A DNA stretch of 64,000 nt from Desulfobulbaceae bacterium (GTDB lineage: Bacteria > Desulfobacterota > Desulfobulbia > Desulfobulbales > SURF-16): contig PKTX01000058.1 in NCBI GenBank assembly GCA_002868945.1, positions 1 to 64,000 on the forward strand, given 5' to 3'. Of the stretch, positions 1,916 through 24,796 are shown piece by piece; positions within the stretch are counted from its first letter, which is position 1; every line of letters starts with the position of its first letter. Position numbers and translations under genes: made by a program. The notes below the pieces were generated by a model. That model saw only the letters and a program-made list of their open reading frames with translations. It had not been told where the DNA came from and searched no databases.

Positions 1916-2096
1916 TCGAATAGTTATCTCAACCCGGCAAGTTGAATTATATCATTCTCTTTTTTATCCAGCTGTTGTGGCATGGTATAAAAGTGTGAGG
2001 AGAACAGTGCCCTGTTTTTTGTGGCCCGTGTTTTGCAGTAGCCTAGTGACAGGTCGGCTTGACTCGATCGATACCCATTGTTAAGGAGCAAGAAAT

Positions 2097-3758
2097 ATGG
2101 CCGAAATAAAACCACCCTGTCGCAAGGATGGAAAGAGCAAAGGAGCCGATGATGCGGGCAATGTCGAGTCCCAGTTCAACTTCCTCTATTCACTGATCAA
2201 CGAGGTTCCTGATCCGATCTTAGTGGTGGGCACTGATTTCAGGGTTAAATTTGCCAATCGGGCCGCTCAGAATTTTTCAAACAAGTTTGTCTGTAAGGGT
2301 GACAAGGAACCCTTCTGTCATACCCTGGTTTACAATATCGATTTTCAGTGCAGTAACATGGGGCGCCCCTGTCCACTCATCGAGGTGCTGGAGAGTAACA
2401 GGCCGGTGGTGGTTGAGCATGAGATAAAGCAGGATGACGGTGCCATCCGCAACTATGAAATTCACGCCTCGCCCCTCTGGGATGATAACGGACAATTCCT
2501 GGGAATTGTTGAGTCGATTCGGGATATTACCGATAGGACGGAATATGCCCGCATGCTGAAAAAGAGCCAGCGGCAGCTTGAGACCAGTGTTGAAGAGCGC
2601 ACCAGGGATCTCTTGCGCAGCAACGATATCCTGCGTACCGAGATAGTCGGTCGCCAGAATATCGAGAAAATCCTGCGGGCCGAGCGCGATAAGTTCCAGG
2701 TCATGCTTGAGGCCATGGGCCAGGGCATGCATATCCTCAACTCCGATTTTACCATTGAATATCAAAACGATGTGCTGCGTGACCTGTTCGGTGACCAGAT
2801 CGGCCACACCTGTTATGAGGTTTATAAGAGCCGTAATGAGCCGTGTGAGATATGTCGGATGCAGGAGGCCATTAACACCGGCCAGGTGCAGAGGACGGAA
2901 GAGGTTATGCGCAATAAACGGTATTATTCGCAGAGTTATGCGCCGTTCAAGGATATAGATGGTGAGGATAAATGTCTTATCCTCCTCAATGATATCACCG
3001 AGGAAAAGATGTACCAGGCCGAGACCATGCGCACCGGCCAGCTTGCCTCCATCGGCGAGTTGGCGGCCGGTGTCGCCCATGAGATCAATAATCCCATCAA
3101 CGGTATTATCAATTTTTCTCAGATCCTCATGGATGATTGCACGGATGAGGCGACAGGCGGCATTTTGCAGCGCGTTATCGACGAGGGAGAGCGGGTGGCG
3201 ATTATTGTCAGCAAGCTCCTCTCCTTCGCCAGACAAGGTGGTGATGATCAGGCCGCCTATATGGAGACAGAGGTGCGCGATGTCCTTGATGATTCCTTTG
3301 CACTGCTGGGACATCAATTCAAGAAGGATGGTATCCACTATGAGGTGAGTGGCCCCCTTGAAAGGATCCATGTCTGGGTCAACCCGCAACAGCTCCAGCA
3401 GGTCTTTGTCAACCTGCTCTCCAACGCTCGTTTTGCCTTAAATGACAAATTCAAGAAGGAACGCAGCGAGGGGAAGAAATTGAAGGTCAAGGTCTCGCTG
3501 ATCAAGCTCAAAAACAGGAAGTTTGTCCGGATCAACTTCACCGATTATGGCTGCGGTATTCCGGAGGAGATTATCGATGTCGTGTGTAATCCATTCTTCT
3601 CCACCAAGGAACCTGGAGAAGGTACAGGGCTGGGACTTTCCATCAGTGAGGGAATTATTAAGGAATTCAAGGGCTTCCTGCGTATTAAAAGTGAAATCGA
3701 CAAGTACACCTCAATCATGGTGGATCTGCCGATTTATGAACCTGAACAAGGGGAATAA
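2097..3758 (+). CDS. Soluble PAS-domain sensor histidine kinase
   Basis: This 553-residue protein has no membrane segment. It has two PAS-like sensor modules (about 25-150 and 195-305), a linking coiled coil (about 150-195), a HisKA dimerisation domain with phospho-acceptor H328 in AAGVAHEINNP, and a HATPase domain with N-box N443, G1 DYGCGIP (483-489) and G2 GEGTGLGLS (508-515). Both PAS modules carry Cys clusters (C66, C74, C85, C92 and C239, C250, C253), suggesting cytoplasmic redox or metal sensing; this is inference. It sits two bases before an NtrC-type response regulator, its likely partner. AAGGAG supports the ATG at 2097. Confidence 0.92.
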   Translation: MAEIKPPCRKDGKSKGADDAGNVESQFNFLYSLINEVPDPILVVGTDFRVKFANRAAQNFSNKFVCKGDKEPFCHTLVYNIDFQCSNMGRPCPLIEVLESNRPVVVEHEIKQDDGAIRNYEIHASPLWDDNGQFLGIVESIRDITDRTEYARMLKKSQRQLETSVEERTRDLLRSNDILRTEIVGRQNIEKILRAERDKFQVMLEAMGQGMHILNSDFTIEYQNDVLRDLFGDQIGHTCYEVYKSRNEPCEICRMQEAINTGQVQRTEEVMRNKRYYSQSYAPFKDIDGEDKCLILLNDITEEKMYQAETMRTGQLASIGELAAGVAHEINNPINGIINFSQILMDDCTDEATGGILQRVIDEGERVAIIVSKLLSFARQGGDDQAAYMETEVRDVLDDSFALLGHQFKKDGIHYEVSGPLERIHVWVNPQQLQQVFVNLLSNARFALNDKFKKERSEGKKLKVKVSLIKLKNRKFVRINFTDYGCGIPEEIIDVVCNPFFSTKEPGEGTGLGLSISEGIIKEFKGFLRIKSEIDKYTSIMVDLPIYEPEQGE

Positions 3759-3760
3759 TT

Positions 3761-5527
3761 ATGGTGGCATTAGAAAACGACAATACGGCTATTCTGGTTG
3801 TGGATGATGAAGAGAGTCTGCGCCTGACCTTCCAGATGTTTCTGGCCCGGGAAGGCTATGGCCCGGTGGAGGTGGCTTCCACCTATGATGAGGCGCTGGC
3901 CCTGATCGACAAGCAGGATTTTGATCTGGTGGTCAGTGATATTGTCATGGAAGGGGCCTCCGGCATTGATTTGCTGCGAACCATCAAGGAAAAGGGCGTC
4001 GAGTGTCCGGTGGTCATGGTCACCGGCTATCCCAACATTAATACCGCTGCTGAGGCGGTGCGCTTGGGGGCCTTTGACTACCTGGCCAAGCCGGTAAAAA
4101 AAGAGGATCTGTTGCGTACGGCCAGGATGGCCCTGCAGCAATATGCCCTGCGCAATGCCAATAATGCCCTGGCCCATGAAAAGGAACGCTATCAAAAATA
4201 TCTGGAGGCGGTTTTTCGCAGTGTTCCGGAGCTTATTTTCACCGTTGATCCCCAGCGTCGTATTATTGAGTTTAACGATAATGTGGCCAAGTGGGTGGCC
4301 GACTTTGGCATTGACGATATCAGCGGCAAGACCCTGGATGAGGTTGGGGCCTGCTTTGAGTTGTTCAGCCGGGATGTTGATGCCGTGCTGGCCGATCAGG
4401 AGGAGGTTCCGGAGCATCGTATAGAATTTACCCATGATTCGGGCCAGGCCAGCATCTTCAGGGTCAGTGCGGTGCCGTTGGTCAGTGATGAGGGGGTTTT
4501 CCTCGGCGTGGTGCTGGTGGCATGGGATGTCAGCCGCTTTGAGGCCCTTGAAAAAAAGGGACTGCGTGAGCGGCTCCATCGATTGGTGGGTGCCAGCAGG
4601 GCCATGCAGACCGTCTATACCCTGATTGAGAATGTCGGCAAGGTGGACACCACGGTGTTGATAAGCGGTGAATCTGGCACCGGTAAAGAGCTGGTGGCCG
4701 AGGCCCTGCATGCAGAAAGCCCCAGGCGCGACATGCCGTTGATCAAGGTTGACTGTACGGCTATTCCGGAAAACCTCCTGGAGAGTGAGCTTTTCGGCCA
4801 TAAAAAAGGCTCTTTTACCGGGGCTGACCGGGACAGACCGGGGCGCATACTCCAGGCCGATGGTGGTACTCTTTTTCTGGATGAGATTGGCGATATCTCA
4901 CCACTTATGCAGCTGCGTTTGTTACGTTTTTTACAGGAGAGGACTTTTTATCCGGTGGGGCAGGACAGTGCCATTTCCGTGGATGTTCGGGTGGTGGCCG
5001 CCACCAATGCCGATCTCCGCCAAAAGGTGCAGAGTGGTCAGTTTCGTGAGGATCTCTACTATCGACTGAAGGTGGTGGATATTAATCTGCCTCCCCTGCG
5101 TGACAGAGAGGCTGACCTGGTCATGCTGGTGCAACTCTTCATGGTCCGTTTCAGCAGCCGCATGGGCAAGGAGATCGGCGGTATCTCGGATCAGGCCCTG
5201 CAGGTCTTGCAGAGCCATGACTGGCCCGGCAACATCCGTGAACTGGAGCATGTCATGGAGCGGGCCTGTGTGTTGTGTGACGGATCCACCATAACCGTGG
5301 AACACCTGCCGGGGGAACTGCGCCATCAGGAGAGAACCGCGGCACCGGTGCGGCATGGCGATGTTCTGCTTGAGGAGGAAAATGAAGAGGTGCGAATCGT
5401 CAACACCTTGAAGAGGACCTTCGGCAACAAGGCCCAGGCCGCCCGTCTTCTCGGTATTGACCGCTCCACCTTGTACCGCAAGTTGAAGCTCTATGATATT
5501 GACGCCGACGATGTTGTCCACAGCTGA
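3761..5527 (+). CDS. NtrC-family sigma-54-dependent response regulator
   Basis: The 588-residue protein has a receiver domain (1-125; phospho-acceptor D60, T88, K110), a PAS domain (about 140-260), a sigma-54 AAA+ domain (about 275-500) and a Fis-type C-terminal helix-turn-helix (about 540-580). Walker A is GESGTGKE (303-310), the sigma-54 contact loop reads GSFTGA (350-355) and Walker B is LFLDEI (371-376). The PAS between receiver and AAA+ domain is less common in NtrC proteins and suggests a second input. It follows its probable kinase with a two-base gap, so the two form a two-component system. Likely targets are sigma-54 promoters such as the one at 7856-7872; this is inference. Confidence 0.93.
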   Translation: MVALENDNTAILVVDDEESLRLTFQMFLAREGYGPVEVASTYDEALALIDKQDFDLVVSDIVMEGASGIDLLRTIKEKGVECPVVMVTGYPNINTAAEAVRLGAFDYLAKPVKKEDLLRTARMALQQYALRNANNALAHEKERYQKYLEAVFRSVPELIFTVDPQRRIIEFNDNVAKWVADFGIDDISGKTLDEVGACFELFSRDVDAVLADQEEVPEHRIEFTHDSGQASIFRVSAVPLVSDEGVFLGVVLVAWDVSRFEALEKKGLRERLHRLVGASRAMQTVYTLIENVGKVDTTVLISGESGTGKELVAEALHAESPRRDMPLIKVDCTAIPENLLESELFGHKKGSFTGADRDRPGRILQADGGTLFLDEIGDISPLMQLRLLRFLQERTFYPVGQDSAISVDVRVVAATNADLRQKVQSGQFREDLYYRLKVVDINLPPLRDREADLVMLVQLFMVRFSSRMGKEIGGISDQALQVLQSHDWPGNIRELEHVMERACVLCDGSTITVEHLPGELRHQERTAAPVRHGDVLLEEENEEVRIVNTLKRTFGNKAQAARLLGIDRSTLYRKLKLYDIDADDVVHS

Positions 5528-5694: not shown

Positions 5695-7464
5695 ATGAAA
5701 TATCCCATTCGTAACGGGGTCATTTTGGTGGGGGTGTTGCTGGTTGGTCTTGGTCTGTATAGTTCCTGGAATGTGGAAAAAAGATTGCCGCCGCTCGACT
5801 ATACGGCCTTTCTGGCCCAATTGTCCGCCGGTGAAATCAAGAGGGTCGAGATCATAGGCGGCAAGATTAATGCCGTGGACAAGTATGACCAGGAGTTTCA
5901 GACTTTCTCCCCTGATATCCAGTGGTTGCTGCCCAGGCTTGAAGAAAAAAACGTCACGATCAGGGCCCGTCCGCAGCCCAAAAACTTCGGTTTCTTTGAG
6001 TCAACCCTGCCCCTGGTCCTTGTGCTCGGCGCCTGGTTGTATTGGTCGCGCAAAAGCCGGCAAGCGGATACCGGTCTGAAGGGCAAGGCCTCCCTGGTGC
6101 CGCAGGATGTGGCCGGCAAGGTGACCTTTGCCGATGTGGCCGGCATTGATGAGGCCAAGGCGGAGCTCATGGAGACGGTGGAATTTCTGCGCGACTCGAC
6201 GCGGTATACCCGTCTCGGCGGCAGGATTCCCAAAGGGGTTCTGTTGCAGGGGCCGCCGGGCACCGGCAAGACCTTGCTGGCCAAGGCCATTGCCGGCGAG
6301 GCGGGCGTGCCCTTCTTCTCGTTGAGTGGCTCTGATTTTGTTGAGATGTATGTCGGGGTAGGTGCCTCCAGGGTGCGCGCCCTCTTTGAGGAGGCCAAAA
6401 AGAACAGCCCCTGCATCATCTTTATTGATGAGATTGATGCGGTGGGACGCTCTCGGGGCGGCGGCGGTCCGGGGCATGGCGGTGCTGATGAGCGGGAACA
6501 GACCCTGAACGCCCTGCTTGTTGAGATGGACGGTTTTCAGAGTGATGAAACGGTCATTATTGTTGGCGCCACCAATCGGCCGGATGTCCTTGATCCGGCC
6601 CTGCGGCGGCCGGGCCGCTTTGACCGGCAGGTGACCATCCTGCCGCCTGATGTCAAGGGCAGGGCCATGATTCTTGCCGTGCATGGTCGCAATATTAAGA
6701 TGGCTGATGATGTTACCATGGATATGGTGGCCTCCACCACCCCCGGCTTTACCGGGGCTGATCTGGCCAACCTGATGAATGAAGCGGCCCTGATGGCAGC
6801 ACGCAAGGATAAGGAACGGGTCGAGCTTGTTGATATCGAAGAGGCCAAGGACAAAATTCTCATGGGGGCCGAACGCAAGGGCATGGTCATCCGCGATGAG
6901 GAAAAGAAGGTGACGGCCTATCATGAGGCCGGCCATGCCCTGGTGGCCATGCTGTTGCCCGAGGCTGACCCGGTTCATAAGATCACCATTATTCCGCGTG
7001 GCCGTGCCATGGGCGTCACCCAACAGGTCCCCCTCGACGATCGTCATTCCTACAGCCGGGAGTATCTGATGGATCGCATCAAGATTCTGCTGGGCGGTCG
7101 TACCGCCGAGGAGATCGTCTTTAATCGTTTTACCACAGGGGCCAGTAACGATCTGCAGGTCACCACGGAAATCGCCACCAGAATGGTGTGCGAGTGGGGG
7201 ATGAGCCCCATTGTGGGGCCGCGGGCCTATGTTGACGCGGACGAGGGTTTTCTTGGTGGTCGCCAACAACGCACGGCCTATAGCGAGAGCACCGGCCAGC
7301 TTATTGATGCGGAAATTAATAAGATCATTGAAGATTGCCTGCAGGAGACCATGATTCTGCTCCAGGGCAAGGAGCAGTTTCTGCATAACCTGGCGCGCCA
7401 CCTGTTGGTCAAGGAAACCATGAACGGCGATGAGGTGGAAAAGGTAATGAAAGAGAGCGGCTGA
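5695..7464 (+). CDS. ftsH: ATP-dependent zinc metalloprotease FtsH (copy 1)
   Basis: This 589-residue membrane-anchored AAA+ protease has two N-terminal membrane segments (about 8-24 and 104-118) around a short periplasmic domain, an AAA+ domain with Walker A GPPGTGKT (186-193), Walker [10 protein letters not shown] and SRH arginines, and an M41 protease domain with HEAGH (410-414). FtsH degrades misfolded membrane proteins and regulatory substrates such as sigma-32. A second, clearly different FtsH is encoded at 13242-15023. GGGAGAA precedes the ATG, and a strong hairpin terminator follows. The gene could be co-transcribed with the two-component system upstream (about 170-bp gap), but no evidence decides this. 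Confidence 0.95.
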
Positions 7465-7560
7465 CATCTGCAGGCGCCATGCAACATGTCAACAACAGTT
7501 AACATATCGGTTCAGCCCTGCTTTGCGGGTGGACTTGTGGTGCATATCTGCTTGTAATTA

Positions 7561-7604
7561 AAAAGCTTTTCTCGACGAGGCCGAGGTCGGGAAAGGCTTT
7601 TTTT
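7561..7604 (+). terminator. Terminator after ftsH copy 1
   Basis: An AAAAGCTTTTCTCGAC arm pairs imperfectly with GTCGGGAAAGGCTTTT, followed by a T-run. It has the form of a rho-independent terminator and could act in both directions. Confidence 0.85.
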
Positions 7605-7642: not shown

Positions 7643-7696
7643 AATGTGTGGCATGCAACACATCTGTTGCAACAGATGTGTTGCATGCCACACATT
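7643..7696. promoter_or_regulatory. 54-bp perfect palindrome
   Basis: Bases 7643-7668 (AATGTGTGGCATGC...) are the exact reverse complement of 7671-7696, and the two central bases are GC, so all 54 bp are self-complementary. The inner part contains overlapping GCAACA-N4-TGTTGC dyads and a central TGTTGCAACA. It lies about 160 bp upstream of a sigma-54 promoter, the usual place for an upstream activating sequence. Alternatives are an extruding cruciform or a strong hairpin in read-through RNA. Confidence 0.75.
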
Positions 7697-7720
7697 TTGC
7701 AACAGTAAAATGTTGCAAAA
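7695..7720. promoter_or_regulatory. Dyad TTTTGCAACA-N6-TGTTGCAAAA (candidate activator site)
   Basis: Ten-base arms match perfectly around GTAAAA. The half-site GCAACA/TGTTGC also occurs in the 54-bp palindrome just upstream and in ACTGTTGC...GCAACAGT around 7784-7822. The repeated dyads suggest an enhancer array for a sigma-54 activator. Confidence 0.6.
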
Positions 7721-7855
7721 GAAGGTTGGGTTGCCTGATTGTTAAAAATATTAATTTTATTTGTGGCAGAGGAGGGCAGTGGAACTGTTGCACTCTTTGT
7801 GGCGAACACCATGAGCAACAGTGATTTGCCACATTGGTGAGTGATTGTCGCAACA

Positions 7856-7872
7856 TGGCACTGAATGTGCAC
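7856..7872 (+). promoter_or_regulatory. Sigma-54 promoter of the cytochrome/Fe-S/NrfD operon
   Basis: TGGCACTGAATGTGCAC has GG (7857-7858) and GC (7869-7870) separated by exactly 10 bases. It fits the consensus TGGCAC-N5-TTGCA at all but one base. The predicted start is near 7881, leaving a roughly 210-base untranslated leader before the cytochrome gene at 8092. Candidate activator sites lie 35-210 bp upstream. Confidence 0.75.
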
Positions 7873-8091
7873 TCATTTTAGCCAGTAAAGGCTGACTTCT
7901 GGATATTGTCCTTTAATTTTAGCAGGTTATCTGTATCGAGCGTTTTTGGCGGACAATGGGGTGAAGGGGATGGCCAGGCAAATCGGTTCATCTGTCTGAC
8001 CACCTCTCCAGATAGAGTGACGTGAGAGTCTTTCTCAAAGAAAATCTATGTAGTTTAGATGGGTAAGTTAATCCAACAGAGGAGAGTAACA

Positions 8092-8622
8092 ATGGGTATT
8101 AAAAAGAGGAAGCTGCTTGGACTAGCCCTCATGGCGGCCATGGTGAGCCCCTGGTCATTGCCGGGTCCGGCCACGGCAGAGGTCTTTGAACTCGACAGTG
8201 TCAAGAATCTCTATGAGGGGGTGAGTTTCGATCATGATATGCATATCGAGATCACCGGTGAAGATTGTACGGCCTGCCACCATCACACGGCAGGCACCGC
8301 GCCGGTTGATCCGCTCTGTGTTACCTGCCACGCCAACAGTCCCGAAGCGGATGACCCCAGTTGCAAGTCGTGTCATGCCAAAGACGTCTTTGATGCCGAC
8401 AATATGAAGAAAAACTGGGATACGCCGCTCTTGCATCATCGCAACAAGCCCGGCCTCAAGGCGGCATATCACCGGAACTGTCTCGGCTGTCATGAGGAGA
8501 TCGGCGCTCCCACCGGCTGCACCGACTGTCACGCCATGACCGAGGTCGGCGAGAAATTTTACAACACCGGCAAATATGCCCCTGAGCCCACGGCCGCAGG
8601 TCAGGGTGGTGGCCATCATTAA
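8092..8622 (+). CDS. Periplasmic five-heme c-type cytochrome of a membrane redox complex
   Basis: The 176-residue protein has a Sec signal peptide (1-29) and five CXXCH heme-binding motifs at residues 59-63, 76-80, 91-95, 130-134 and 143-147, the first followed by extra histidines (CHHH). Many scattered histidines can act as distal ligands, as in class III cytochromes, although tetraheme c3 proteins have only four sites. The ATG at 8092 is preferred because GAGGAGAG sits just before it; an upstream ATG at 8059 lacks a site. It is the first gene of an operon with a Tat-exported Fe-S protein and an NrfD-like protein, so it probably exchanges electrons with the periplasmic cytochrome pool. A named complex (Hmc, Tmc, Nrf) cannot be fixed from sequence alone. 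Confidence 0.88.
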   Translation: MGIKKRKLLGLALMAAMVSPWSLPGPATAEVFELDSVKNLYEGVSFDHDMHIEITGEDCTACHHHTAGTAPVDPLCVTCHANSPEADDPSCKSCHAKDVFDADNMKKNWDTPLLHHRNKPGLKAAYHRNCLGCHEEIGAPTGCTDCHAMTEVGEKFYNTGKYAPEPTAAGQGGGHH

Positions 8623-8699: not shown

Positions 8700-9632
8700 A
8701 TGAAGAGATTAAATCGTAGGTCATTTTTGAAAGGCGGCCTAGCCAGCGGTGTTACAGCAGCAGCTGTAACAGGTTCAGTCGGGAAGGCTGACGCTGCCGG
8801 TGATTTCGGGGGCTACCCTGATAGTATGGGCGTGCTCGTTGATTTGACGAAATGTATCGGCTGCCGCACCTGTGAGGCGGCCTGTAACAAAGAACAGAAT
8901 CTGCCGGCGCCCGATAAGCCGTTTACCGACATGTCGGTTCACGATGAGGTGCGGCACGGCGGCCTGCCCAGGCGCACCTCGGAAAAGGCGTATACCGTGG
9001 TGAACAAGTATGAGGTGGAGGGGCGCGAGCATCCGCTCTTTCGCAAGGTGCAGTGTAACCATTGTCAGGAGCCGGGTTGTCTGACCTCCTGCTTTGTCAA
9101 CGCCTATACCAAGACACCTGAGGGGGCGGTTATCTATGACCCCAAGGTCTGTGTGGGTTGCCGTACCTGCATGATCGCCTGTCCCTTTTACATCCCTGCC
9201 TACAGCTATTCTTCCCCCATCAATCCGGTGGTGAAGAAGTGCATCATGTGCTACGACACCCGTCTCAAGTTCGGCAGGCCGCCGGCATGTGTCGAGGCCT
9301 GTCCGCAGCAGGTCATGACCTTTGGTAAGAGAAAGGATCTCATTGATCTGGCCCATAAGACCATTAAAAGTCGGCCGTCGCTTTACCTTGATCATGTCTA
9401 TGGTGAAAAAGAGGTGGGGGGCACCTCCTGGATGTATTTGACGTCGCAGGATGCCCCTTTTGGGGAGATAGGTTTTGACACCCACCTTGGTAAGCAGCCT
9501 ATTATTAATTATGTCAAGGAGTTCCTGGCAATTGTTCCCATGGTGCTGACTATCTGGCCGGCGCTCTTTACAGGCTTCCATCTTCTGGCAACGCGGAAGG
9601 AAGCTAAGAAAAACGATGAGAGCGTAAGCTAG
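8700..9632 (+). CDS. Tat-exported 4x[4Fe-4S] ferredoxin-like subunit (HybA/HmcB-like)
   Basis: This 310-residue protein begins with a Tat signal (RRSFLKGG, residues 6-13). It has four cysteine clusters typical of the NrfC/HybA/DsrO family: CIGCRTCEAAC, CNHCQEPGCLTSC, CVGCRTCMIAC and CIMCYDTR...CVEAC, enough for four [4Fe-4S] clusters. A C-terminal hydrophobic segment (about 275-297, FLAIVPMVLTIWPALFTGF) would anchor it to the membrane, as in HybA and HmcB but not NrfC. It likely relays electrons between the periplasmic cytochrome and the NrfD-type quinone-interacting subunit. Only 12 bases separate it from the next gene. Confidence 0.9.
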   Translation: MKRLNRRSFLKGGLASGVTAAAVTGSVGKADAAGDFGGYPDSMGVLVDLTKCIGCRTCEAACNKEQNLPAPDKPFTDMSVHDEVRHGGLPRRTSEKAYTVVNKYEVEGREHPLFRKVQCNHCQEPGCLTSCFVNAYTKTPEGAVIYDPKVCVGCRTCMIACPFYIPAYSYSSPINPVVKKCIMCYDTRLKFGRPPACVEACPQQVMTFGKRKDLIDLAHKTIKSRPSLYLDHVYGEKEVGGTSWMYLTSQDAPFGEIGFDTHLGKQPIINYVKEFLAIVPMVLTIWPALFTGFHLLATRKEAKKNDESVS

Positions 9633-9644
9633 GAGGATACTTTT

Positions 9645-10901
9645 ATGAAAACGTATGTAACACAAGGCTTTGAGCCTATTGATACATTGAAGAAGCCGGG
9701 GTCCGACACCCCATGGACCTTGAAGGAAAAGCTTCTCCTGGGGCTCAGCTCAGGGGAGTATGTCAAGCAGCTGGTGCGCAACCCCTTTAACTGGATTCTG
9801 GCGATTATTTATGCCGTTGGTATTCCGATTATTCTTGGTCGCTTCTACTACGGTCTTGGTTGGGTCACCCATAGCAGCTATGATTATCCCTGGGGCCTTT
9901 TTCTGGGCTGGGGGCTGTTCTGCATGGTGCCGCTCTCCGCCTCGGGCTTTATGCTGGGCACCACGGTGGAGCTGTTCGGGCGTAAGGACTTTAAGCCCAT
10001 TGAGCGCCTTGGTCTGCTCAATGGACTGCTCGGTTATTTCTTTGCAGTCATGTTTCTGCAGGCCGACCTCGGTCAACCCTGGCGGCTTATCTACCCCATG
10101 TTTGTCTCCCTGGGCCCGGCCGCGGTTCTTTTTCTGGTGGCCTGGCATGTTGCCACCTATCTCACCGTGCAGGTTGCCGAATTGGTGCCGGCGGCCAGTG
10201 AAATGATGGGCTGGAAGGCGCCAAAGAAGTTCGTCAAATCCATTGTCCTTGGTCTGACGGTGGCTGGTATTATCCTCTCCACCCTGCATCAGGGGGCCCT
10301 GGGGGCACTCTTCACCTATGCACCGGGCAAGGTACATCCCCTCTGGTACTCCTATAGCTTCCAGTGGTTTCATTTCTTCTGCTCATCCATTTTTGCCGGA
10401 CTCTCCATGCTCATCGTGGTCTCCACCCTGTCAAAATGGTTTCTGAAGTGGCGCTGTGACGCCGATTTCCTGGGCAGCCTGGACCGCATTACCCTGGGGC
10501 TTTCCAAGGGTGCCTCTTTGGCCCTGATCACCTATCTTATTATCAAGCTGACAGCCGTGGCCCATGATAATGAGTGGGGACTTCTCTTCACCGGTTGGGG
10601 ACAGTGGTATATCTTTGAACTCAGTTTTGGCGTCATTCTGCCGCTTATTCTCTATACCGTCGCCATTCGCAATCAGAGTGTCGCGGTGGCGCGTTTTGCC
10701 GCCCTGATCGCGGTGCTGGGTATCCTGCTCAACCGTCTCAACACGGCCCTGATTACCTTTAACTGGAATCTCTACCAGGAGATTCCCCACTGGCGTGAGA
10801 TTGTCATTACCGTGACCATCTATGCCACCTATATCCTGGTCTATCGTGCAGTTCTTTATCGTTTGCCCATCCTCTATACCTGGAAGGGTGAGTCGAAATA
10901 G
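9645..10901 (+). CDS. NrfD/PsrC-family integral membrane subunit (HybB/HmcC-like)
   Basis: The 418-residue protein has about ten hydrophobic segments and is close in length to HybB (about 390 residues) and HmcC. The family binds menaquinone and couples quinone redox chemistry to a periplasmic Fe-S partner. It follows the HybA/HmcB-like gene in one transcription unit (AGGAGG 8-13 bases before the ATG), so the three genes make a cytochrome/Fe-S/membrane complex. There is no adjacent molybdopterin or hydrogenase subunit, so the ultimate electron donor or acceptor is not evident. Confidence 0.9.
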   Translation: MKTYVTQGFEPIDTLKKPGSDTPWTLKEKLLLGLSSGEYVKQLVRNPFNWILAIIYAVGIPIILGRFYYGLGWVTHSSYDYPWGLFLGWGLFCMVPLSASGFMLGTTVELFGRKDFKPIERLGLLNGLLGYFFAVMFLQADLGQPWRLIYPMFVSLGPAAVLFLVAWHVATYLTVQVAELVPAASEMMGWKAPKKFVKSIVLGLTVAGIILSTLHQGALGALFTYAPGKVHPLWYSYSFQWFHFFCSSIFAGLSMLIVVSTLSKWFLKWRCDADFLGSLDRITLGLSKGASLALITYLIIKLTAVAHDNEWGLLFTGWGQWYIFELSFGVILPLILYTVAIRNQSVAVARFAALIAVLGILLNRLNTALITFNWNLYQEIPHWREIVITVTIYATYILVYRAVLYRLPILYTWKGESK

Positions 10902-10910
10902 GACCATCTC

Positions 10911-10950
10911 TGTATCGAACCTGCGCCTGTGCAGGCGCAGGTTCGATACA
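10911..10950 (+). terminator. 40-base perfect hairpin after the NrfD-like gene
   Basis: Two 19-base arms (10911-10929 and 10932-10950) are exactly complementary around a TG loop, followed by TTCTTT, a poor T-run. It is 9 bases past the stop of the NrfD-like gene, so it probably terminates or stabilises that mRNA. The kinase gene downstream may be partly read through. Confidence 0.65.
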
Positions 10951-17679: not shown

Positions 17680-18126
17680 ATGGCGCGAAAAAAAACAGAG
17701 GTAAAGCCGCTCCGCTCTGATTTGCCGATCTATCCCATTGGGGTGGCGGCAAAGCTGCTCGGTGTCCATCCTCGGACACTGCGGATTTACGAGGCAGAGG
17801 GCCTGGTCAAGCCGGCTCAGCACAGTGGTTCACGGCGCTTATATTCTCCCAATGATATCAAATGGATTGAATGTTTGCGGTCAATAATTCATGACCAGGG
17901 CATCTCTATTCCCGGGTTAAAGAAACTGTTGACCCTGGTTCCCTGTTGGGATGTGGCTGAATGCCCCAAGGAAGTCCATGAGTGCTGCCAAGCCAGGATC
18001 GATTGGGCTGTGCCAAGAACCTTGCACCGTGTCGGCGATGAAGAGGATCGCAAGCGGGCCAAGGCGCAGGACCAAAAAAAGGACGACAAGGCGGTGCCTG
18101 GAAAAAAGCAAGTATCACCTGGGTGA
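17680..18126 (+). CDS. MerR-family regulator with C-terminal cysteine motif (paralogue 1)
   Basis: This 148-residue protein has an N-terminal MerR winged helix (about 18-88; GVAAKLLGVHPRTLRIYEAEGL) and a short effector region with PCWDVAEC followed by E-C-C. A Lys/Asp-rich tail ends the protein. The paralogue at 26080 has PCWNVAEC and a further C in the same place, so the cysteines are probably functional, as metal, Fe-S or thiol redox ligands. The start has AAGGAGG 5-11 bases upstream. Location directly after the NrfD-like gene suggests control of that gene or of a shared regulon. Confidence 0.85.
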   Translation: MARKKTEVKPLRSDLPIYPIGVAAKLLGVHPRTLRIYEAEGLVKPAQHSGSRRLYSPNDIKWIECLRSIIHDQGISIPGLKKLLTLVPCWDVAECPKEVHECCQARIDWAVPRTLHRVGDEEDRKRAKAQDQKKDDKAVPGKKQVSPG

Positions 18127-18745: not shown

Positions 18746-21148
18746 TCACTGGTCGCTGGGGTCGTCCGGTGAGAGCTTGTACTTGCTTATCTTCCGGCGC
18801 AGGGTGTCCTTGGAGATCCCCAGTTCACGGCAGGTGGCCATCTTCTTCCACTTGTTTTTGGTGAGTGAGGCGGCAATGGCGGTCTTTTCGATCTCCTCAA
18901 GGGTCTGCGATATGCCGGCCAGGGGCAAGACGGCGGCGGCCGGTGTCTTGCGGTTGCTTGCCGGGGCAAAGGGCTCGGGCAGGTGATCCGGCTGGATAAG
19001 GCCGCCGGGGCAGAGGATAAAGGCGTATTCAATAATGTTTTCCAGTTCACGGATGTTGCCGGGAAAGTCATAGTGCATGAGGATGGAGAGGGCCTCCTCG
19101 GAGATGCCGACAATATCCTTGCCCTGCTGGGCGCCGAACTTTGAGATGAAATGTTCAATGAGGAGTGGAATGTCTTCCATCCTTTCCCGCAGGGGGGGCA
19201 ACTGAATCTTGACAACATTGAGGCGATAAAAGAGGTCCTCGCGAAAGGCGTCTTCCCTGACCAGGGCCTGCAGGTCGCGATTGGTGGCCGTGATAATGCG
19301 GACATCGGCTGTGACCGGTTCATTGGAACCGAGGGGTTCGTAAACCTTTTGCTGGAGAACCCTGAGGAGTTTTACCTGCAGGGAGGCCGGGATGTCGCCA
19401 ATCTCGTCAAGGAAGATGGTGCCGCCCTCGGCAGTGGCAAATCGCCCTTTTTTGTCTTTTTTGGCGTCGGTGAAGGCGCCGGCCTTGTAGCCGAAGAGCT
19501 CTGATTCGAGAAGGGTGTCGGGCAGGGCGCCGCAATTGACAATAACAAAGGGTTTTGTGCTGCGCGAGGAGGCATTGTAGATGGCCCGGGCCACCAACTC
19601 CTTGCCGGTACCGCTTTCGCCGAGAATCAGGACATTGCTGGGGCTGCGGGCAATCTCCGGCAATATGTCGAAGATGCGCTGCATGGCCGGGCTCTTCGAG
19701 ATGATCTCGTCGACTGTATAGCGCATGGTGAGCTGTCGGCGCAGGCTGTCGACCACCGAGAGGTCGCGGAAGGTCTCCACTCCGCCGAGAACATTGCCCT
19801 CATGATCAAGCAGGGGAGCGGCGCTGATGGAGATCGGCAGTCGGTTGCCTGAGCGTGTCTCAATGGTGATTGAACGGTTGGCAACGGGCTGGCCACTGTA
19901 CATGGATTGCGCAATGGCGCAGGATTTGCCGCAGATGGACGAGTGAAAAACATCGCTGCAGAACTTGCCGATGGCATCGTCACGGTGCCAGCCGGTCATC
20001 TGCTCGGCCGCTCGATTAAAGGAGGTGATCTGCCAGTTGCGGTCAACGGTGAAGACGCCGTCGGCAACCGAGTCGATGATCATGTCATTTTTGATGGTGG
20101 TGGTGATGTCGCGAAAGGTCTCGACCCCGCCGATTACCGTGCCTTCATGGTCAAGCAGGGGAGCGGCGCTGATGGAGATGGGAATGGTGTCGCCCTGCTT
20201 GCTTTTGATAAAGATGGAGCGGTCGACAATTTCCTGTCCCAGGGCGACGGCCTGGTTGAGGATGCAGCTGTCGCCGCAGACCGAAGAGTGAAAAATACCA
20301 CTGCAACGTTTGCCGACCACCTCTGCGCGACTCCAGCCGGTGATGGCCTCGGCCGCCCGGTTAAAGGAGGTAATCCGCCAATCCTTGTCCACGGTGAAGA
20401 CGCCGTCGGCCACGGAATCAAGGATGAGATCGTTCTTCATGGTGGCGGTGATGTCGCGGAAGGTCTCAACGCTGCCGATGCTATTGCCTTCGGGATCAAG
20501 CAGGGGGGCGGCGGTGATGGAGACAGGTATTTTATGACCCTTTTTGGTGCTGATGGTCAGGATCTGGTCAAGAATGGTTTTTTTGTCTTGGGTGGAGGCG
20601 GTGGGCCCTTCCTGGTCGCCGCACATGCCGGGAGGGAAGATGTCTCGACATCGACGTCCCAGGGCCTCGCGCCGCGTCCAGCCGGTAATGGCCTCGGCCG
20701 CCTTGTTGAAGGAGGTGATATGCCAGTCGCGATCCACGGTGAAAACGCCCTCGGCAACGGAATTCATGGCCAGGTCATTGGTGTGGCTGGTCTCGTGGAT
20801 CTCTCTGAGGGTGATGACAGCCCCGTTTATATGACCGTCTTTGTCTGGCAGGGGGATGGCCGAGATCATAACCGCGGTGGAGTCGCCCGTATCCGGATTG
20901 TCAATGACCATCCGAAAGTTTGTCATGGCACGGCCGGAGGCGAGCGGCCCGTAGAGGCTGCACAACTTGGTGAAGCGTTCATAGGGGCTGAACGCCTCCT
21001 GGCAATTCTTGCCGAGCATCTCTTCTTTGCTGAGGCCGAGGAGTTTTTCGGCATTTCGATTAAAGGAGGTGATTTCCCAGTTGCTGTTTACGGTGAAAAT
21101 CGCATCGGCAATCTTGGATGGGGCTGTCTGAACGGCGCTGTTATCCAT
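18746..21148 (-). CDS. Sigma-54-dependent activator with four tandem PAS domains
   Basis: The 800-residue protein has no receiver domain. Four PAS modules (about 10-115, 122-235, 238-350, 355-465) are followed by a sigma-54 AAA+ domain (about 475-705; [22 protein letters not shown]) and a Fis-type HTH (about 755-795). PAS 2-4 are near-repeats of one another ([21 protein letters not shown]), pointing to internal duplication. Each PAS carries a cysteine ([28 protein letters not shown]), which suggests redox or metal sensing. GAFTDA is a natural variant of GAFTGA. It is flanked by the redox modules and is the likely activator of one or more sigma-54 promoters here; this is inference. Confidence 0.92.
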
Positions 21149-23612: not shown

Positions 23613-23983
23613 TGAGCTGCGCCCTTTGTTTTCTCGTCGGAGGGAGGCAGTGGATGTTTTTTTAGTCCCGCCTCCCTCCGTCCCCTTCTCTGTCCTGCCC
23701 CTTCTCGGCAGACTCTTCCGCCCCCCGCGCCAGGCCGTGCCTTGATCGGCCAACAAACCCTTTTGGCATTAAAAAGGTGTATCTCCTCTGTAAGGTATTC
23801 CTGTAGATCGAATGGTCAGGGGAAGCCGCCATACTTGCCAACGCCCGTTTGCAACTCAGCCCCTTTCTCTCCTGGACACCATAGTGCCCCCTTCTGAGGT
23901 TTTCTCCTCAGGGATCCCCTCTCTTTTCAGGCCCTGGACCGCTTTTGCCACATAGTTGTCGGCATGGTCGAGCTGTTTTTTTT

Positions 23984-23998
23984 GGCGCATATTGCGCC
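23984..23998. promoter_or_regulatory. Palindromic site GGCGCA-N3-TGCGCC (candidate activator site)
   Basis: GGCGCATATTGCGCC is a palindrome with 6-base arms, 7-base if flanking T/A is counted. It matches the motif at 24157-24171 and 15466-15480 and lies about 320 bp upstream of a sigma-54 promoter. Confidence 0.5.
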
Positions 23999-24156
23999 AT
24001 ATTCTTGGTATCCGTATTGTATGTCCTTGTTTTGTCGTCTTTTTTTCTGGTGGTGCAACAAGGGTGTGGCGTAGTCTTTTCGGCGATTATGGCACGTTTG
24101 GTCGGGATTTATGCCACAAAGTTGGCGTATTCTGCGCAACACTCATGTGGGAGTGC

Positions 24157-24171
24157 GACGCAATTTGCGCC
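24157..24171. promoter_or_regulatory. Candidate regulator site GACGCA-N2-TTGCGCC (second)
   Basis: GACGCAATTTGCGCC lies about 150 bp upstream of the sigma-54 promoter at 24305, a normal distance for an enhancer-binding site. It matches the site at 15466-15480 at 13 of 15 bases. Confidence 0.5.
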
Positions 24172-24304
24172 ATGCTTTGTAAATTATATGGAAATGCAAA
24201 GTGCCAAAAGAACCTATAAAGAAATATTTGTATAGGTTTCTTTCAACGGTAGTATGGGGGGTTATGCATTTTGGCCTGCCGGGGATGGTTGGGCGAGGCC
24301 TGTT

Positions 24305-24322
24305 TTGGCATACCAGTTGCTA
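24305..24322 (+). promoter_or_regulatory. Sigma-54 promoter of the second small-protein/NrfD operon
   Basis: TTGGCATACCAGTTGCTA has GG (24307-24308) and GC (24319-24320) with a 10-base spacer and very good -24 (TTGGCA) and -12 (TTGCT) elements. The predicted start is near 24332, giving a leader of about 110 bases before the small ORF at 24441. Confidence 0.78.
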
Positions 24323-24674: not shown

Positions 24675-24796
24675 TGCTCTTTGGGGTGCTCCATGGCCCG
24701 GGTGGCGGCCCGGCCAGGATTCCCCGAGAGATACAAACAATGTAGCCTGGCGGCTACCGAAATAAGTTGTCTATATAATTTACAGGAGGAATGAAA

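Follow-up and report, generated by a model that had tools for sequence, protein, structure and literature searches.

The interval 7643-7872 of the window (the whole 64,000-nucleotide stretch of Desulfobulbaceae DNA that was analysed) very probably comprises the enhancer and the sigma-54 promoter of a cytochrome c / Fe-S / NrfD-like operon that is activated through RpoN by the response regulator encoded at 3761-5527, a reading built on the computed sites, their conservation, the promoter, the linkage to the regulator gene and the presence of RpoN in the genome. In the mechanism that these features suggest, dimers of the regulator would bind GCMACA-N4-TGTKGC dyads by means of a C-terminal Fis-type HTH, occupying two overlapping dyads in a 30-bp core and usually a third dyad 2-3 helical turns further on. 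Phosphorylation of the regulator by the kinase encoded at 2097-3758, in response to a signal that is presumably of the redox or quinone-pool type, is predicted to let the AAA+ ring assemble on the dyad scaffold, and a DNA loop of ~190 bp would bring this ring to the RpoN-polymerase at 7856-7871 and lead to opening of the promoter. At sigma-54-dependent promoters transcription starts ~12 bases 3' of the GC element, and the operon transcript would be expected to begin near 7882.

The genes of this proposed circuit lie on the plus strand. A PAS histidine kinase gene (2097-3758), assigned by domain search and proposed as the regulator's partner from its adjacency and conserved synteny, is followed by the gene of the sigma-54 response regulator (3761-5527; receiver, PAS, AAA and Fis HTH by domain search), the proposed enhancer-binding protein, and by that of a conserved neighbour, an FtsH protease (5695-7464; TIGR01241 739.7 bits, cut-off 600). 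An inverted repeat followed by a T-run on the same strand (7560-7602; 17-nt arms, 88%) is a likely terminator that separates FtsH from the array. The operon itself encodes a small multihaem cytochrome c as its first product (8092-8622; 5 CxxCH motifs by eye), a Tat-signal, HmcB-like 4Fe-4S protein (8700-9632; HmcB 391.6 bits, cut-off 420) and an HmcC-like NrfD-type membrane protein (9645-10901; HmcC 351.9 bits, cut-off 550) that has no Pfam match, and a plus-strand hairpin with 19-nt perfect arms at 10911-10950, 3' of the NrfD-like gene, is likely the operon terminator. Beyond this hairpin lie another kinase gene (11069) and, on the minus strand, a second FtsH gene (13242). RpoN is encoded elsewhere in the genome (TIGR02395 467.7 bits, cut-off 277.35).

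The kinase/regulator operon is preceded by a sigma-54-type promoter of its own, TGGCCCGTGTTTTGCA (2022-2037, plus strand). The window, G001, G002 and G011, 4 of the 10 loci compared, have such a site 70-82 bp upstream of the kinase match, and single TGTGGC half-sites accompany it in three of the four; in the other 6 loci no promoter is found before the kinase, and the stretch examined there resembles upstream kinase coding sequence. Full enhancer arrays before the kinase gene were found in none of the 10 loci. Autoregulation of the kinase/regulator operon may be possible from these sites. That the kinase/regulator promoter has single half-sites only is a point against the main reading, as is the encoding of a second activator nearby at 18746.

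The operon promoter TGGCACTGAATGTGCA (7856-7871, plus strand) has the GG-N10-GC spacing and the TGGCAC/TTGC-like elements of a sigma-54 promoter, is identical in sequence in the congeners G001 and G002, and is conserved in position in orthologues. Since the window holds 10 sites scoring at least 10/12 as sigma-54 promoters and shuffled sequence a mean of 7.6, this single match is by itself within chance. The density of hexamers and dyads at 7643-7872 is far above chance. Nine TGTTGC/GCAACA hexamers are found in this interval, all of them 5' of the promoter, whereas 2000 shuffles of the interval yield 1.2 on average and never more than 6, and the densest 230 bp in 100 shuffled windows contains at most 4. 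When TGTGGC/GCCACA, which alternate with TGTTGC/GCAACA, are added, the half-sites total 14, and 8 of these are within or adjoin a 54-bp palindrome at 7643-7696. The array core GCAACACATCTGTTGCAACAGATGTGTTGC (30 bp, 7655-7684) is composed of the dyads U1 (7655-7670) and U2 (7669-7684) with a GC common to both, and is flanked by an outer half-site TGTGGC on the plus strand (7647-7652) and its mirror GCCACA (7687-7692). A third dyad U3, GCAACA-N6-TGTTGC (7699-7716), represents a third dyad that recurs across loci, and six single half-sites are spread over 7762-7855 (TGTGGC 7762, TGTTGC 7786, TGTGGC 7798, GCAACA 7815, GCCACA 7828, GCAACA 7850), for which no clear conservation is seen in orthologues. 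Elsewhere in the organism's own 3.7-Mb genome TGTKGCATGCMACA does not recur, even at 1 mismatch, the 30-bp core has this one match, and GCMACA-N4-TGTKGC has three matches (7655, 7669 and 24055), all inside the window. A first-pass annotation of this DNA had described a GG-N10-GC sigma-54 promoter preceded by three sets of GCAACA/TGTTGC dyads. Promoter and dyads are present as described, but the unit is instead the overlapping pair of GCMACA-N4-TGTKGC dyads, and the first two sets, although real, are parts of one perfect 54-bp palindrome that had been overlooked.

The same annotation had made its proposal depend on the dyads and promoter being conserved upstream of orthologous operons, and this is what is found. 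At E 1e-30 or better the NrfD-like protein has relatives in 18 of the 22 family genomes and at 46 loci of public genomes, several of them named Desulfobulbaceae, Desulfurivibrio or Desulfogranum, and mapping of the proteins on the loci places kinase, regulator, FtsH, cytochrome, Fe-S and NrfD genes in the same order across the family. Most of 21 loci have a similar half-site array and a sigma-54 promoter upstream of the cytochrome gene; L032 has the array and no promoter match. Seven loci (L023, L037-L039, L041, L042 and L063) show no array upstream of the cytochrome gene, because some of the contigs start there and some of the arrays are elsewhere in the cluster. The arrays were scanned for with the pattern GCMACA-N4-TGTDGCHACA-N4-TGTDGC, and the pattern read backwards served as the control. 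With up to 3 mismatches allowed, the scan detects the array in 14 of the 22 family genomes, the hit in G007 and the second one in G002 being chance-like; with up to 2, it does so in 79 of the 257 genomes of the order, and the control is almost always 0. The array is almost unique per genome, and the 13 family genomes with a readable array and regulator all carry it, 12 of them once.

Follow-up of these matches used 80 array loci, made up of stretches fetched around the matches of the order together with 11 family loci; the matches in G043 (at a contig end) and the second in G002 were left out. Cluster genes (histidine kinase, sigma-54 response regulator, FtsH, cytochrome c, Fe-S, NrfD-like) are present in 74 of the 80, and the six loci without cluster proteins (L138, L139, L150, L151, L196 and L197) were dropped, so that later counts comprise one array per locus in these 74 plus the window, with L176 and L177 being two contigs of one genome. 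The array is located in the gap between FtsH and cytochrome genes in 28 loci and in that between regulator and FtsH genes in another 28, where its start is often no more than ~60 bp away from the last codon matched in the regulator; in the remaining array loci FtsH does not lie in between, or one of the neighbours is absent or falls outside the stretch.

Array and promoter are one oriented unit at enhancer distance, and this is the strongest single result of the analysis. Of 73 loci, 66 have the promoter pattern TGGCAY-N6-TGCW 3' of the array, on the same strand and at a distance of 60-460 bp, any locus that lacks a sigma-54 match being scored as a miss; the controls give 0/73 on the opposite strand, 1/73 and 0/73 on the two strands of the 400 bp 5' of the array, and 0/67 at a distance of 1.5 kb further on. 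The distance from array axis to promoter is ~186 bp in the window and, among the 68 loci whose match lies no further than 700 bp away, 114-305 bp in all but three. An IHF-like site between array and promoter is absent from the window, which counts against the main reading; at 1 mismatch 27 of 68 loci have an IHF match there, where shuffling gives 12.65 on average, and this is no more than a weak hint of such a site.

Across loci the conserved core is GCMACA-N4-TGTKGCMACA-N4-TGTKGC, i.e. two 16-bp dyads that overlap at the central GC, usually with a third dyad after them. Conservation at the fixed positions of the core is partly built in, since the core was found by pattern. The spacers are unconstrained by the search pattern and are mostly S-W-W-S among the 75 arrays, which makes the basic unit GCMACA-SWWS-TGTKGC, 16 bp long and present twice with a GC overlap; AT follows the core in most arrays. 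A 14-bp unit TGTKGC-N2-GCMACA as the basic site is rejected, because the outer half-sites that it requires, 2 bp beyond the core, occur only in some families and are absent in much of the order while GCMACA-N4-TGTKGC persists. A further N4-spaced dyad lies outside the core in 41 of the 75 loci (50 matches, as against 4.6 in shuffled flanks), most often at +32 to +34 or +44 to +46 from the core start, which puts it roughly two or three helical turns away from the second dyad. In the window the spacer of the third dyad is N6 rather than N4. With centres spaced by 14 bp, the two core dyads have two bases in common, and simultaneous occupancy by two dimers may therefore fail.

In the window the core and both outer half-sites are contained in the perfect palindrome detected at 7643-7696 by inverted-repeat scan, whose 27-nt arms (7643-7669 and 7670-7696) are 100% complementary with no loop, whereas gapless palindrome arms in 100 shuffled windows reach at most 11 bp. 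The 46-bp centre is perfect in the window and in two congeners, which differ from the window in 3 to 4 pairs, changed always on both sides and never on one, and in G002 (L022) the mirror symmetry continues beyond the binding sites. A nucleic-acid structure such as an RNA hairpin, a terminator or a cruciform, in place of protein sites, would be in keeping with the length of the palindrome, with the changed pairs of three congeners (up to 4), none of which is one-sided, and with some loci of another family (L153, L154 and L156), in which the outer arms beside the array vary in letters among loci and remain complementary. Symmetric pairing is, however, often imperfect in other loci, several symmetric positions pairing in only ~40-60% of 78 arrays (the extra arrays of L132 and L133 being retained in this count) while the half-sites are kept; this loss of pairing leads to rejection of a structural role as the conserved function. 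The palindrome moreover sits 5' of the promoter and after a separate terminator, and a terminator scan makes no call at it, although the scan requires a loop of at least 3. A structural explanation is thus highly improbable. The perfect palindrome is a feature of the lineage.

The mirrored changes plausibly arise by template-switch copying of one arm. The overlapping dyads and the mirrored palindrome changes are the unusual parts of the regulon. A tentative and rather doubtful extension is that two dyads sharing the central GC, with centres 14 bp apart, and a third dyad at a distance of 2 or 3 turns would form a compact enhancer that is a ready-made scaffold for one hexamer, and that some lineages keep it perfectly palindromic by arm-to-arm template-switch copying so that mirror positions change together. 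The overlapping dyads would offer a natural test of the nucleation of activator rings by enhancer DNA, and the mirrored changes one of palindrome correction.

The protein encoded at 3761-5527 scores over the cut-offs of PF00072, PF00158 and PF02954 and thus has a receiver domain, a sigma-54 AAA+ domain and a Fis-type HTH; against the NtrC model TIGR01818 it reaches 411.7 bits, below the cut-off of 558.6. All 58 regulators compared from array loci have the phosphorylation-site D (58/58), their GAFTGA loop reads G-x-F-T-G-A with five letters at 1.00 (the second letter is S in the window protein), and the recognition helix DRSTLYRK is conserved at 0.83-1.00. By domains and motifs the protein would be a group 1 bEBP, for which enhancer binding and activation of RpoN are predicted.

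Array and regulator gene are strongly associated. With 3761-like regulators defined at E 1e-155, the regulator is encoded in 76 of 79 genomes with the array as compared with 77 of 178 without it (Fisher p 4e-18, relatedness being ignored), and all 13 family genomes with the cluster array also encode the regulator. The regulator is found without the array in three family genomes, G006 and G012, in which the contig ends before the expected place, and G003, in which the cluster is split between contigs; in the order, a 3761-like regulator is encoded in 153 genomes, and 77 of these yield no array when up to 2 mismatches are allowed, a point against the main reading, although some are cases of paralogues, broken contigs or more diverged sites. 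The loci L043-L062 have the same redox genes and, where an activator was found, a different HTH (RPNFQAMLKK-like or similar), and, L049 and L060 apart, they show neither an array at up to 3 mismatches nor a promoter match ahead of the cytochrome gene. These two exceptions carry an array together with an HTH of the DRSTLYRK type, which is also seen in other array loci with a readable regulator. As the redox operons with a different activator are without the array, the array follows the regulator and not the operon. The enhancer-driven control that the first-pass annotation had drawn between the redox operon and the 2097/3761 system is supported by this observation together with the promoter (66/73) and co-occurrence (76/79) counts. 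The dyads by themselves do not name their protein, and they might instead be operators of another, non-sigma-54 protein, e.g. a repressor, located here by chance; this is barely credible given that a sigma-54 promoter so regularly follows the array, and that the array tracks the regulator gene through changes of gene order and is absent where the activator HTH differs.

The window does encode two sigma-54 activators, as had been claimed, the second (18746-21148) having four PAS domains, AAA+ and a Fis HTH. Its gene is only ~11 kb away and its homologues share the contig of the cluster in several family genomes, features that would suit an array serving as the enhancer of this second activator. 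However, G005 has the array and no 18746 homologue at E 1e-200, G016 and G018 have 18746 homologues without regulator or array (the operon is missing there too), and in other families the array is directly 3' of the 3761-type gene. The distribution in G005, G016 and G018 weakens the case for the second activator as owner of the array, which is very unlikely, and leaves the 3761-5527 regulator as the preferred one. The 18746 activator could regulate a possible second sigma-54 promoter, TGGCATACCAGTTGCT (24306-24321), upstream of an NrfD gene at 24791; the surrounding stretch 23940-24321 includes TGGCGCA/TGCGCCA-like dyads and one GCAACA-N4-TGTGGC (24055-24070). A gene for a MerR-type protein (17683-18126), which is closest to HspR but scores 71.6 bits against a cut-off of 105, is located between NrfD-type genes and the gene of the 18746 activator.

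Conceptually, the nearest precedent is DVU3142/Ohc of D. vulgaris. DVU3142 appears to be a one-component activator, whereas the window regulator is two-component and belongs to another order; Ohc has an octahaem cytochrome and the window cytochrome 5 CxxCH by eye, Ohc being set beside the window by description only. According to the main text of a comparative sigma-54 regulon reconstruction in Desulfovibrio, DVU3142 is a sigma-54 activator predicted to control the Ohc redox complex, and in six Desulfovibrionales genomes its gene lies divergent to ohc (PMC4641369). The likeness lies in a sigma-54 activator gene beside a cytochrome c/Fe-S/membrane redox operon, with sites that in that main text also come from comparative genomics (PMC4641369). 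GCAACA and TGTTGC are absent from the main text of PMC4641369, as are GCAAC and TGTTGC from that of PMC3333781, in both cases as distinct from logo images and supplements. For NorR at norVW, PMC2941729 describes three enhancer sites upstream of a sigma-54 promoter that are proposed as a hexamer scaffold. The window array likewise has several sites 5' of a sigma-54 promoter, and three dimers for one hexamer would be an attractive parallel; NorR differs in that it has a GAF domain and senses NO, whereas the window regulator has a receiver domain and its first two dyads overlap. Sites of NtrC-type (group 1) bEBPs are of the form GCACCA-N3-TGGTGC; these proteins share with the window regulator the receiver-AAA+-Fis HTH architecture and a dyad with outer GC and inner CA/TG, but the window dyad has N4 spacing and another half-site. 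The Hmc complex is similar in its cytochrome c, HmcB-like and HmcC-like subunits, but the window cytochrome is much smaller (HmcA score 50.5, cut-off 400) and all three proteins fall below the curated Hmc cut-offs. No account of the array or regulon was found in the literature searched, i.e. freely readable main texts as distinct from subscription papers, supplements and motif images. Judged from sequence, array and regulon appear to be new, well conserved and of a known kind, and a regulator, a candidate site and a target are thereby assigned comparatively to a redox cluster found widely across an order of sulfur-cycling bacteria.

Some loci show variations on this arrangement. In three distant loci (L140:7746-8705, L153:7804-8718 and L165:9121-10122) the first gene after array and promoter encodes, in the same place, an IS1595/ISXO2-like transposase zinc-ribbon protein, perhaps domesticated. 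Extra arrays in one family (L132:15453, L133:10718 and 16666, L196:4346) are followed by a small membrane protein, and those of L132 and L196 also precede genes for an ethylbenzene-dehydrogenase-type haem protein and a phosphonate-type binding protein (Pfam assignments being for the L132 proteins only); as a side observation, the extra arrays in L132, L133 and L196 would point to a widened regulon. At L151:479-3880 an array and a sigma-54 site precede a sensor, resembling the N-terminus of the second kinase of the window, and a NapC/NirT-type cytochrome.
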